This document shows positions 33,385 to 42,880 of a stretch of 53,927 nt of DNA, piece after piece. The notes under the pieces were generated by a model. That model was given only the letters and a program-made list of their open reading frames with translations, searched no databases and was not told where the DNA came from. The number at the start of each line of letters is the position of its first letter. Positions within the stretch are counted from its first letter, which is position 1. The stretch lies in contig JANXBE010000005.1 in the NCBI GenBank assembly GCA_025060175.1, positions 1-53,927 on the forward strand, given 5' to 3'. This stretch comes from Thermomicrobium sp. (lineage in GTDB: Bacteria; Chloroflexota; Chloroflexia; Thermomicrobiales; Thermomicrobiaceae). The translations under genes were made by a program, and so were the position numbers.

Positions 33385-33413
33385 TTGACAATCAGGCTGG
33401 ACCCGTGTACGAT
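33385..33413 (+). promoter_or_regulatory. Sigma factor operon promoter (-35 TTGACA, 17 nt, -10 TACGAT)
   Basis: TTGACA (33385-33390), 17 nt and TACGAT (33408-33413) form a strong housekeeping promoter with a start near 33420. This is not the usual ECF-type AAC/GTC pair, so any autoregulation by the ECF sigma factor must act elsewhere. Confidence 0.8.
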
Positions 33414-33491
33414 CGGCTCGTCAGGAGCGCTGCCGTGAGTAGACCGCATCCGGACGAGCCGTCGCTCGTTATAGACATGGGAGGACAGGGG

Positions 33492-34082
33492 ATGTCGGGT
33501 TCCGTCGCACTGTCCGCGGCAGACGAACTACGGTGTGTCGCCCGCGCGAAGGCAGGCGACGACGAAGCGTTCGCCCTGCTCTATCAGAAATACGAACGAA
33601 CCATCTACCAGTTCATCTATCGAATGGTCGGAAATGCAGAGGACGCGAGCGATCTCACGCAGGAATGTTTCATCCGTGCGTACAAGGCGCTCCCACAGAC
33701 GAGCGAGGACCTCAACCTCGGTGCGTGGTTGCGTCGCATCGCGGCGAACGTCTGCCTGGATACGTTACGTCGACGGAGCCGGTTGCGCTGGTTACGGCTC
33801 GACCATCTCGCCCCATGGCAGGGTGGTCCGTCACGCTCCACGACCCACGACCCGGAACGAGCCCTCTTGCAGACGGAAACACAGGATGTCGTCGAACGCG
33901 TGCTGCAGCGCTTGCAACCCCGGTACCGGGCTGCCTTGATTCTCCGCGAGTACGAAGGGTATTCGAGCGACGAAATCGCGGACTTCTTGGGCATCTCGCG
34001 GTCCGCTGCCAAGTCACTCCTCTTCCGAGCGCGAGAGGAGTTTCGTCGCCTCTACCATGAAATGGAGGCTTCGACGTCCTGA
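33492..34082 (+). CDS. ECF-subfamily RNA polymerase sigma factor
   Basis: The 196-residue protein has sigma-70 region 2 (about 15-80: GDDEAFALLYQKYERTIYQF, DLTQECFIRAYKAL) and region 4 (about 130-185: LQPRYRAALILREYEGYSSDEIADFLGIS). Region 3 is absent, which defines the ECF group. ATG 33492 has GGGAGG 7-8 nt upstream. GTG 33435, preceded by AGGAG and close to the predicted transcription start, would add 19 residues and is a real alternative. The stop overlaps the anti-sigma start (TGATG), so the two are translationally coupled. It is probably released when the partner senses an envelope signal. Confidence 0.94.
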   Translation: MSGSVALSAADELRCVARAKAGDDEAFALLYQKYERTIYQFIYRMVGNAEDASDLTQECFIRAYKALPQTSEDLNLGAWLRRIAANVCLDTLRRRSRLRWLRLDHLAPWQGGPSRSTTHDPERALLQTETQDVVERVLQRLQPRYRAALILREYEGYSSDEIADFLGISRSAAKSLLFRAREEFRRLYHEMEASTS

Positions 34083-35539
34083 TGGCGCCGCGGGGCTGTC
34101 GTTCCTTTCGACCACTGCTGTCCGCGTACCTCGACGGGGAGCTGTCCGACGAGGAACGGCAGCGTCTTCTCACGCATCTCGCTCGCTGCGCGGACTGCCA
34201 CCGGCGCCTCCGCGAGTACGAAGAACTGCGCGAGCGGCTCCGGCGACTACCGGCTATCCCCCCACCCCCACGGCACCTGCAACGCGAGATATGGGAGCGC
34301 TTGACGGACGTCGAAGCGAGCCAGCGCCGTCACCATCGCCTCCGCGCGACTTTCCTGGCGACCGCTCTGAGTGTCACGCTCCTGCTCGCGACCCTTCTCT
34401 CGGTGACCGTCGGTCTTCAACGCTCCCAACCTCCTCGGATCGTCGCCTCCAGTCCTGCCGCCGGAACCACCCAGCTGTGGCCGATCTACCAGCCGATCGA
34501 GATCGTCTTCTCCAAACCGATGAACGAGCAGTCGGTCCTCATGAATCTCCGCATTTCTCCGCCGGGGGAGCGGGAACGATTACCTATCAGTTGGTCCGGC
34601 ACCACCTTGATCATCGGAGCCGACAGCGAGCGTCGTGTCGCACTCCTCCCGGATACCGTCTACCAAGTCGCCGTGTTGTCGACAGCTGAGGATCGGTGGG
34701 GGCGCCCCCTCGGCACGACCTACGCCGTGACGTTCCGTACCACGAGCGCCATCATACATGCTGGCGAGACACCGGTTCCCACCCCGAGTCAGCCACAGCC
34801 ACGACCGCCAGCGGAATCCGAGGAGGCACGCCCTGCGCCGGCGCCGCACACCACTCCCACCCCGATCGAGCAGCCAGCATCGCCGACTCCGCCCGCCCGC
34901 TCGACGCCGGTGCACACGCCAGCTGCGCCGGCCGCCCCGAACGGACCCGCTCCGCTCCCCCAGCCGTCGCCAACCGTCACGGTGTCACCCACTCCTCAGC
35001 CGACACCGCTACCGACACCGACACCGACGCCCGTTCCCGAGCCGACCTCGACACCAGAGCCCGTCGCGACCCCTGAACCCATTCCAGTGACCGGTGCCTT
35101 CGGCCGCGTCTACTGGTCGGACCAGACGATCCAGCAGCGACTCGGCAACCCCACTACTCCTGCGTTCGTCGTCAATGCGGCCGAACTCGTGTTCCAACGC
35201 GGCGTGATGATCGAACGGTTCGACACCCTCACCGTCTACGTACTGGAAGCCTCTGGAACGTGGCGCAGCGTGCCGGAGCCGGCCCCGATCGACCCGCCGC
35301 TCGAATTTCGCTCGATCGAGCCGAATCTCTGGCTCCCAGGGGGTACGTTCGGGCAAGTTTGGGAAGCGTTGGCACTCGCCGAGCCGCTCGGCTACGCAAC
35401 CGAAGCGAGCATCCACATGATGACCGCTGGCGCGCGCGTCCAGAATTTCGAGCGAGGAACCCTCATGCTGAGCGACCGCGGTTTCGTCTATGCGCTCTTC
35501 GACGACGGTACCTGGAAGCAGTTCCCCGTCACGAACTGA
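34082..35539 (+). CDS. Transmembrane zinc-finger anti-sigma factor with Ig-like domain, Pro/Thr stalk and duplicated C-terminal domain
   Basis: The 485-residue protein begins with a cytoplasmic ZAS domain (Cys6, His32-x3-Cys36-x2-Cys39), which binds ECF sigma factors. One membrane helix follows (about 88-111), then an SbsA-type Ig-like domain (117-222) with PIEIVFSKPM and PDTVYQV. A Pro/Thr/Ala-rich stalk (228-337) leads to two copies of a roughly 60-residue unit (338-398 and 422-483). Each copy has FGxV(Y/W), LGxxT, a Phe-(Q/E)RG step, (V/Y)xL and GTW. I have seen such units in extracytoplasmic Chloroflexota proteins. ATG 34082 overlaps the sigma stop. The design is a membrane-spanning sensor holding the sigma factor; the ligand is unknown. 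Confidence 0.88.
   Translation: MAPRGCRSFRPLLSAYLDGELSDEERQRLLTHLARCADCHRRLREYEELRERLRRLPAIPPPPRHLQREIWERLTDVEASQRRHHRLRATFLATALSVTLLLATLLSVTVGLQRSQPPRIVASSPAAGTTQLWPIYQPIEIVFSKPMNEQSVLMNLRISPPGERERLPISWSGTTLIIGADSERRVALLPDTVYQVAVLSTAEDRWGRPLGTTYAVTFRTTSAIIHAGETPVPTPSQPQPRPPAESEEARPAPAPHTTPTPIEQPASPTPPARSTPVHTPAAPAAPNGPAPLPQPSPTVTVSPTPQPTPLPTPTPTPVPEPTSTPEPVATPEPIPVTGAFGRVYWSDQTIQQRLGNPTTPAFVVNAAELVFQRGVMIERFDTLTVYVLEASGTWRSVPEPAPIDPPLEFRSIEPNLWLPGGTFGQVWEALALAEPLGYATEASIHMMTAGARVQNFERGTLMLSDRGFVYALFDDGTWKQFPVTN
34770..35093 (+). repeat. Low-complexity Pro/Thr-rich coding repeat (stalk of the anti-sigma factor)
   Basis: Imperfect short repeats of CCGACACC/CCGACGCC type encode PTPTPTPVPEPTSTPEP-like sequence. 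The stretch spans about 110 codons and forms the extended extracytoplasmic stalk. Such tracts are prone to length change by slippage. Confidence 0.75.
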
Positions 35540-35545
35540 GGACTC

Positions 35546-36460
35546 CTACCAGAGTAGACTCGCCAGCATGACAACCACCGCATCGTACACGGCATGGCTG
35601 AGGATACATGCGGTCGTCCCCAACCGACGTCGCTCGATGCCCAGGAGCACCGCCAAGGCGAAAACACCCAGCGCGACCACCGAGAGTTCGTACTGCACGT
35701 GGAGAACGGTAAACAGCGACGCGGTGAGCAACAGCCCATACCGTGGCTGGATCGCCCCTCTAAAGAGCACTTCCTCCCCGATTCCGACGACGATCCCCAG
35801 CAGGATCGCCCAACCCGGTGAACCGAATTGCATCGTCAGCGGTGATAACCGCTCCGCGATCCTGGCGGCAGCTTCAGGCTGCATCAGCTGCGCAAGCACT
35901 CCTGTGAGGAGCGAGATCACGAACATCCCTAGGGCAAACAGCAACGCACCGCCCACCGTCTGCCAAGAGGGTCTCGTGACTCCCAAACGCTCGAGCGTGC
36001 TCGACCAGTTCCGCGAGAAGGGAAACCCGACCGAGACGAACGCGAGCGCGACCTCCGCGACCGCCTGCCCGACCAGTTGCGACCGACTGATCATGAGACT
36101 CGGAAAGGCGGTCGTGTGTACGAGCACGCTCAGGAAGAGGACGAGCGTCGCCTGGAGTACCGCCAGACCCAACGCATCCAAGATCGATGTCGGGTCGATC
36201 GGTATCCACCGCGCCACGAAGGACCGGTAGGGTCGCCACCAGGCCAGGAGGAGTGCGCTGCCGACGCCGACGGCACCCGTCCCCCACTCGACCCGACCTG
36301 CGACCAGCGCCATCGTCCCGATGATGAGCGCCCCTCCCCCCGCGGCGATGACGACCGCGTCGATCGACCAACGCGCCCACGCCGAGCGACTGGCTGCCTC
36401 CCCCGCTGCCCGTGCCGCTGCGCCGAGTAGCACGATCACCGCCGCTTCGATCACCCACAC
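35546..36460 (-). CDS. CPBP-family intramembrane metalloprotease (Abi/CAAX protease)
   Basis: The 304-residue membrane protein has about eight helices and the three CPBP motifs: VGIGEEVLFRG (EExxxR), FTVLHVQYE (FxxxH) and ILSHAVYD (HxxxN/D-like). The family includes prenyl-protein proteases and bacteriocin-immunity proteins; substrate is unknown. GTG 36460 is used, with a GAGGA somewhat far upstream; GTG 36454 is close. It converges on the anti-sigma gene with a 6-bp gap. Proximity to an ECF/anti-sigma pair raises the possibility of regulated intramembrane proteolysis, but this family is not the usual site-2 protease. Confidence 0.9.
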   Translation of the reverse strand: MWVIEAAVIVLLGAAARAAGEAASRSAWARWSIDAVVIAAGGGALIIGTMALVAGRVEWGTGAVGVGSALLLAWWRPYRSFVARWIPIDPTSILDALGLAVLQATLVLFLSVLVHTTAFPSLMISRSQLVGQAVAEVALAFVSVGFPFSRNWSSTLERLGVTRPSWQTVGGALLFALGMFVISLLTGVLAQLMQPEAAARIAERLSPLTMQFGSPGWAILLGIVVGIGEEVLFRGAIQPRYGLLLTASLFTVLHVQYELSVVALGVFALAVLLGIERRRLGTTACILSHAVYDAVVVMLASLLW

Positions 36461-41557: not shown

Positions 41558-42880
41558 ATGCAGGCACTGTACATCGTCCCGATCCTCGCCATCCTCATCC
41601 TCGTCCACGAGCTCGGTCATTTCCTCGCTGCGCGCCTGTTCGGCATCCGGGTTCTGGAATTCGGAATCGGCCTTCCTCCTCGTCTCTTCGGCATTCGGCG
41701 AGGAGGGGTGCTCTATTCGTTCAACGCGATCCCTCTCGGCGGCTTCGTCCGCGTCGTCGGCGAAGACAGCCGGACCGACGAACCGGATAGCCTCCAGGCG
41801 AAGCCGCGGTGGCAGCGCGCCGTCTTCTTCGGGGCCGGTGCCGTGATGAACCTGCTGCTCGCCTTCGTCATCATGGTGCTGCTCGTCGGCTTCCGCGGTG
41901 AACCCCAATTCCACATGTACGTCGCCGAGGTCGTTCCTGATTCTCCCGCAGCCCAAGCTGGTTGGCAGCCTGGCGACCGCATCGTGGCGATCGACGGACA
42001 AACGATCCGCGCGGCGGGCGAGATCATCGAGCGGACTGAGCGAGCAGCTGGTCGACCAGTGCGCGTGACACTGTCGCGCGGATCGCAACTCGTCGAGACG
42101 ACGGTCGTTCCCCGGCAGAATCCTCCACCCGGCCAGGGTCGTCTCGGAGTCCGCGTGCTGACGGAACCAGCAGCGCACTTGACTGTCGCCTCGGTCGACC
42201 CGAACTCGCCGGCTGCACGAGCTGGTCTTCAGCCAGGCGATCGCCTCGTGTCGCTCGCGGGGCATCCGATCGATGATGCGGCGATCTACGTCTTCCTGCT
42301 GGAGCGCAACCACGGACGCACGGTCGAGCTCGTCGTCGAGCGAGACGGACAGCGCATAACCGTGCACCTGGAGGTACCCGCCTCGACAGAGAGTGGGGGG
42401 GAGGCTCCCCAAATTGGCATTGCGCTTCGTCCCAGCCTGGTGACGGTCGGTATCCCATGGTGGCGCATTCCCTTGGACGCTGCCGCGCAGACCGTCGCGC
42501 TCCTCGCGCAGATGGTCTACGGTCTCTTCCTGCTCATCCGTGGCCAGGCATCTCTCGGGGATATCGCGGGGCCGATCGGCATGGGTCAACTCACCTCGGA
42601 GATCCTCCAGATCAGCCCGGAACCGGTCTGGGTTACCCTCGGCCACCTGACCGCGCTGCTGTCCGTGAACCTCGCGATCCTGAATCTCGTGCCGTTTCCG
42701 GCACTCGACGGCGGCCGCTTGCTCTTCGTCCTGGTGGAAGCGATCCGCGGACGTCGCATTGCGCCTGAGAAGGAAGGGCTGATTCACCTCATCGGCTTCG
42801 CCATCTTGTTGACGCTGATGTTCATCGTCGCGTTCGCCGATATCGGTCGCCTCATCAGCGGCGAGTCGTTTCTGCGCTAG
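41558..42880 (+). CDS. rseP: RIP zinc metalloprotease RseP (site-2 protease)
   Basis: The 440-residue membrane protease has HELGH (17-21) in its first helix, YSFNAIPLGGFVRV, two tandem PDZ domains (about 118-190 and 200-275), and the third-ligand motif NLVPFPALDGGRL near the C-terminus with two last helices. It performs regulated intramembrane proteolysis, for example of anti-sigma factors, and could act on the ECF anti-sigma factor encoded 6 kb away, though this is inference. Two PDZ domains match E. coli RseP. It precedes ispG as in many genomes, but dxr is missing upstream. Confidence 0.96.
   Translation: MQALYIVPILAILILVHELGHFLAARLFGIRVLEFGIGLPPRLFGIRRGGVLYSFNAIPLGGFVRVVGEDSRTDEPDSLQAKPRWQRAVFFGAGAVMNLLLAFVIMVLLVGFRGEPQFHMYVAEVVPDSPAAQAGWQPGDRIVAIDGQTIRAAGEIIERTERAAGRPVRVTLSRGSQLVETTVVPRQNPPPGQGRLGVRVLTEPAAHLTVASVDPNSPAARAGLQPGDRLVSLAGHPIDDAAIYVFLLERNHGRTVELVVERDGQRITVHLEVPASTESGGEAPQIGIALRPSLVTVGIPWWRIPLDAAAQTVALLAQMVYGLFLLIRGQASLGDIAGPIGMGQLTSEILQISPEPVWVTLGHLTALLSVNLAILNLVPFPALDGGRLLFVLVEAIRGRRIAPEKEGLIHLIGFAILLTLMFIVAFADIGRLISGESFLR

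Follow-up and report, generated by a model that had tools for sequence, protein, structure and literature searches.

The window examined here, a stretch of 53,927 nucleotides that constitutes contig C16 of an incomplete Thermomicrobium genome (G000, 711 kb, 54% complete), contains a gene for an ECF sigma factor that runs into a gene for a membrane-bound anti-sigma factor with a long outer part, which raises the question of what this pair senses and how it is controlled. To our knowledge, envelope sensing in the Chloroflexota is largely unknown, and many members of the phylum have unusual envelopes. The wall of T. roseum contains little peptidoglycan and is dominated by protein (PMC2615216). 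The explanation that we find reasonably probable, taken as a whole, is that this translationally coupled pair of the Thermomicrobiales watches the cell envelope. The features on which the analysis is based are listed in Table 1.

Table 1. Positions of the genes, protein domains and promoter elements in the window (aa, amino acids).
Feature	Position	Strand	Details
P1, sigma70-like promoter	33385–33413	+	TTGACA-N17-TACGAT; sequence and spacing identical in 7/7 genus genomes
Possible upstream GTG start of sigma gene	33435–33437	+	19 extra residues; AGGAG at 33423–33427
P2, remnant of ECF-type promoter	33446–33473	+	AACC-N15/16-CGTT at the corresponding place in relatives
ECF sigma factor gene	33492–34082	+	Regions 2 and 4; core start ATG 33492
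Single-pass anti-sigma factor gene	34082–35539	+	485 aa; zf-HC2; orthologues in families f1, f2, f4 and f5
Zinc anti-sigma domain	34097–34201	+	zf-HC2 3.6e-14; zinc-site residues C6, H32, C36, C39
Transmembrane helix	34355–34411	+	Residues ~92–110; hydrophobicity maximum and helix in model
SbsA-type Ig domain (Big_5)	34427–34741	+	Residues 116–220; Pfam 3.3e-11; model pLDDT ~96
Pro/Thr stalk	34754–35083	+	Residues 225–334; composition; disordered in model
Pair of LGFP-like repeats	35084–35536	+	Residues 335–485; hhalign, Pfam LGFP and PS1 profile match
RseP-type M50 metalloprotease	41558–42880	+	Candidate site-2 protease, putative link; Peptidase_M50 4.2e-55; M50/PDZ

The overlapping genes and their conservation

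The product of the sigma gene matches the Pfam families Sigma70_r2 (6.1e-19) and Sigma70_r4_2 (2e-16), exceeds the cut-off of the TIGR02937 sigma70-ECF model and contains regions 2 and 4 only, which defines it as an ECF factor. The section picked out in a preliminary description of this DNA opens at 33385; this position belongs to the –35 box of a promoter and is not the start of the gene, and the core start is the ATG at which the close orthologues also begin in the alignment (MSGS/MDGS). An in-frame GTG (33435) with its own AGGAG is kept in 7 of the 7 genomes of the genus (33423–33491 in the window), and transcripts from P1 would allow a sigma factor longer by 19 residues to be made from it. 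The sigma stop and the anti-sigma start share one base in the sequence TGATG (34080–34084), so that the overlap of an ECF sigma gene with an anti-sigma gene, as originally described, is borne out by these bases together with the Pfam matches.

The pair is present in 28 genomes from four families of the order Thermomicrobiales, and its genes overlap in nearly all cases. Orthologues occur across the whole of family f1 and also in families f2, f4 and f5; no clear orthologue was found in family f3. The sigma gene could be read in all 28 genomes and the anti-sigma gene in 27, where its start overlaps the sigma stop or lies within ~10 bases of it; in the remaining genome (G024) an anti-sigma match is located just downstream of the sigma gene. 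The co-encoded anti-sigma factor that is characteristic of ECF factors is thus overlapping or immediately adjacent across the order. Families f1 and f2 keep the whole block RplS, sigma factor, anti-sigma factor, CPBP protease, ParB, GlyRS and XerC. The tested neighbor genes were not found beside the pair in f4 and f5, and since the pair itself is retained there, it is the functional unit. The gene for the CPBP/CAAX-type membrane protease (35546–36460, minus strand) is convergent with the anti-sigma gene. A role for this protease as a dedicated partner was considered and rejected: it keeps its place in f1 and f2, yet so does the entire block as far as XerC, and in f4 and f5 it was not found beside the pair, so that its adjacency is no special evidence. 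The conserved distance to RseP was discounted as evidence on the same grounds.

The outer part of the anti-sigma factor and its relatives

The anti-sigma factor had been described as a ZAS domain followed by a single membrane helix, an Ig domain of the SbsA type, a stalk of ~110 residues and a duplicated C-terminus, and every one of these parts was recovered. The N-terminal anti-sigma domain carries the Hx3Cx2C motif of class I zinc anti-sigma factors (zf-HC2, 8.8e-13; 48.5 bits against a cut-off of 22.2). Residues H32, C36 and C39 do not vary among 24 anti-sigma orthologues, and C6 is almost invariant; C6, C36 and C39 are the sole cysteines of the window protein, and the zinc-site cysteines are the only ones in nearly all copies. 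The Ig domain scores 44.3 bits (Pfam gathering score for Big_5: 23.6) and has many invariant residues in the orthologue alignment. The stalk contains 39 prolines and 18 threonines in its 110 residues, and its length ranges from ~110 to 290 residues among the relatives, with both ends of the protein conserved. Modeling of the outer region had been suggested beforehand, and the full-length AlphaFold2 model shows the anti-sigma helices, a single long helix (64–115), the Ig domain (119–221, pLDDT ~96) and the C-terminal domain (335–484, pLDDT ~97), with a disordered stalk between the last two. A phmmer search of the PDB with the whole protein returned low-complexity or weak matches only.

The two halves of the C-terminal domain are homologous to each other (hhalign probability 98.9, E 1.7e-17), and the domain was modeled with a pLDDT of 96.5. 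Pfam LGFP (PF08310) gives weak matches to the C-terminal domain in 20 of the 24 orthologues (best 8.1e-9); the window protein, with 19.0 bits, stays below the Pfam gathering cut-off of 22, while the orthologue from G027 reaches 31.1 bits and some other relatives are also above it. The profile of the domain matches corynebacterial PS1 (PDB ID: 6swz) at 2.2e-7, mostly via one repeat. A fold search of the PDB with the C-terminal model gave nothing significant, 6swz being found at rank 27 (E 0.11, TM 0.23). We therefore call the tip LGFP-like: as far as sequence can tell, the pair is related to the LGFP repeats of PS1, yet the PDB fold comparison gave no confirmation. PS1 (mycoloyltransferase A of Corynebacterium glutamicum, PDB IDs: 6swz, 6sx4) also differs in carrying several repeats of ~54 residues and an enzyme, whereas the window protein has two of ~65 residues and no enzyme attached. 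LGFP repeats have been described as cell-wall anchoring or associated (PMC6116114; PMC12113857), and the resemblance of the tip to such domains makes it probable that the pair registers changes in the envelope and responds to them.

Within the genus, the domain was found in the anti-sigma protein alone. The preliminary description had proposed a search for it across the Chloroflexota, where it turned up in 48 of 300 genomes. The cases inspected include anti-sigma factors adjoining an ECF sigma gene (G265, G149, G249, G343), further zinc-domain proteins with a stalk and an LGFP pair (G157, G125, G273) and other secreted proteins. In families f6–f9 of the same class, the stalk and LGFP pair are joined through a membrane helix to Ser/Thr kinases. 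These kinases are PknB-like, with the stalk and the LGFP-like pair outside (loci L107, L108, L109, L110, L111, L112–L116, L118, L119 and L121). The occurrence of the tip on kinases and secreted proteins points to a module that senses or anchors on the outer side. No Ig domain was detected in the distant Chloroflexota relatives with a zinc domain, stalk and LGFP pair, which makes the tip the more constant of the outer elements. Outer repeats are familiar from PknB-type Ser/Thr kinases, namely the PASTA kinases; the outer repeats of the Chloroflexota kinases are not PASTA. These kinases have the stalk and tip in common with the window anti-sigma factor and differ in their output, which would be phosphorylation and not sigma release. 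A search of the open literature found no paper linking LGFP with anti-sigma factors or kinases, and the outer architecture of the anti-sigma factor is not described in the literature searched, relative to which it is new. In G027, a secreted protein with an LGFP-like pair and 'FLDYW..GFPLTEE..VQYFER' repeats is encoded directly upstream of the sigma gene (L028:6957–8148, minus strand).

Promoters and candidate target genes

P1 is found beyond the genus in the sister genera g3 and g4, as TTGACA-N17-TAGGCT, and is absent elsewhere. The element AACC-N15/16-CGTT, as expected for autoregulation by an ECF factor, directly precedes this gene in all 21 of the 21 genomes that do not belong to the genus, the chance expectation being 0.11 among 28 shuffled (mononucleotide) sequences. 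In the window, its –35 has decayed to GCATCC (33446–33451), followed by N15 and a retained –10, CGTTATA (33467–33473); the motif search locates this copy at 33450–33484. The –35 reads GCATCC or GCACCC within the genus, where the –10 is retained. Genera g3 and g4 carry both promoters, and g1, g3 and g4 form one clade (support 100/99). Read from this distribution, the ancestral promoter of the operon is of the ECF type and the housekeeping promoter arose later; the simplest history would be that P1 was gained in the g1/g3/g4 clade, after which the –35 of P2 decayed in the genus of the window. Autoregulation has probably been weakened or lost there. The housekeeping promoter of the preliminary description is thus real and general to the genus, but the control at the protein level deduced from it is not implied for the family, since the ancestral promoter is ECF-type. 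Genome G004 contains two copies of the P2 region (G004:C15:6274 and G004:C33:118503), one of them near a contig end, which is probably an assembly overlap.

The extended motif AACC-N15/16-CGTTNTA was counted against its reversed pattern as a control. Genomes with P2 only contain 89 sites against 33 for the control (own sites included), while there is no excess in the P1 clade (19 against 46). No enrichment is seen in the genus of the window (14 against 30), where the strict P2 element, with zero mismatches, was found at its own gene only. In family f4, a gene starts within 150 bases downstream of 13 of 31 sites, compared with 6 of 60 control sites, and the gene that follows codes for a hydrophobic N-terminus at 11 of 31 sites against 0 of 60 (Fisher 1.8e-6, which is indicative only, as the controls come from nine genomes read in both directions). 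The putative targets in f4 include subtilases and MltG as well as surface proteins and a solute-binding lipoprotein; for a polysaccharide deacetylase that also matches LGFP, the motif lies just outside the 150-base limit. These exported genes in distant relatives, together with the LGFP-related tip, support the earlier view of an exposed sensor that reaches out to read an envelope signal. Similar promoters could also serve other ECF factors. A FecR-like membrane protein (L175, L192, L261–L273) is encoded in single copy in the P2-only genomes; the P1 clade lacks it. Its orthologues were set aside as generally conserved targets, the upstream motif being confined to f4 and genus g2, where support for a conserved target is moderate.

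It is tentatively proposed, with rather more doubt than belief, that the stalk and paired LGFP-like tip form a portable wall-sensing module of the Chloroflexota with two unrelated outputs, ECF anti-sigma factors in the Thermomicrobiales and elsewhere and Ser/Thr kinases in further families of the class, and that the version in the Thermomicrobium clade lost its autoregulatory promoter, was rewired to a housekeeping promoter and lost the ancestral regulon.

Proposed sensing and release, and alternative readings

The pair belongs to a known kind. Class I (ASD/ZAS) membrane anti-sigma factors, of which RsiW of Bacillus subtilis is an example, have in common with the window protein the Hx3Cx2C zinc domain, one membrane helix, the overlap with an ECF sigma gene and a probable RseP/PrsW route, and differ from it in lacking the long outer part with its Ig domain, Pro/Thr stalk and LGFP-like pair. 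The conserved pair is most likely a cell-envelope sensor acting by regulated proteolysis. The zinc domain would hold the sigma factor at the membrane, while outside, the Ig domain and the disordered stalk would present the LGFP-like pair, which probably binds a wall or surface polymer. When contact of the tip is altered, the anti-sigma factor would probably be cut stepwise, at site 1 by a PrsW-type or some other protease and then by RseP, freeing the sigma factor. In the ancestral state, the freed factor would activate its own operon and exported or wall genes from AACC-N15/16-CGTT promoters, whereas in Thermomicrobium the sigma70-like promoter would drive the operon instead. RseP is nearly universal and PrsW-type proteases are present in 9 of 9 relatives searched, although none was found in the 54% of the genome that G000 represents; both are compatible with a stepwise release of the sigma factor and not evidence for it.

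The tip could instead be an anchor that fastens the protein to the wall and does no sensing, the signal being read by the Ig domain, the membrane or tension in the stalk. The anchoring role of LGFP repeats cited above, a stalk that varies in length between conserved ends and the many invariant residues of the Ig domain all agree with this; the distant relatives, where the Ig domain is not detected and the tip is the more constant part, speak against it, and we think it unlikely while regarding it as a serious contender. The layout of the protein also recalls RsgI of Clostridium thermocellum, which likewise combines an inner anti-sigma part, a single helix and a binding domain at the far end (PMC12203970), and the tip might by analogy bind an external polysaccharide or nutrient polymer, with the sigma factor controlling degradative enzymes. 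The subtilases and the solute-binding protein behind the f4 motif would fit such a role. MltG and exported surface proteins are among the same targets, however, the LGFP links point to the wall, and no substrate-specific enzyme cluster adjoins the pair. RsgI itself differs in its anti-sigma domain, in acting on sigma-I, which is not an ECF factor, and in bearing carbohydrate-binding modules, not LGFP-like repeats. Binding of an external polymer with control of degradative enzymes is improbable in our view.

A different question is whether the Thermomicrobium pair still controls what its ancestor did. It could be constitutively expressed and have drifted from the ancestral regulon, with few or no ancestral targets left under its control, as would be in line with the gain of P1 in a single clade, the decayed –35 of P2 and lack of motif enrichment in the genus, and the absence of the FecR-like gene, a putative target, from the P1 clade. 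Both proteins and the –10 of P2 are nevertheless well conserved within the genus, which indicates continued function. Drift of this extent appears rather unlikely.

The sigma/anti-sigma pair is thus real, conserved and of a known type, and is probably envelope-sensing, the preferred reading. It would provide the Chloroflexota with a conserved candidate envelope sensor and a likely class of ligand, together with a candidate regulon and its promoter motif. It also offers a traceable case in which a stress operon exchanged an ECF-type promoter for a housekeeping one by way of a stage with both. What is new is the pair as a unit of conservation, its LGFP-like tip, the kinase fusions, the derived promoter and the motif before exported and wall genes (MltG, subtilases) of a distant family. 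A large family of secreted proteins typical of the Thermomicrobiales was also observed (L275–L304), with roughly 10–50 matches per genome.
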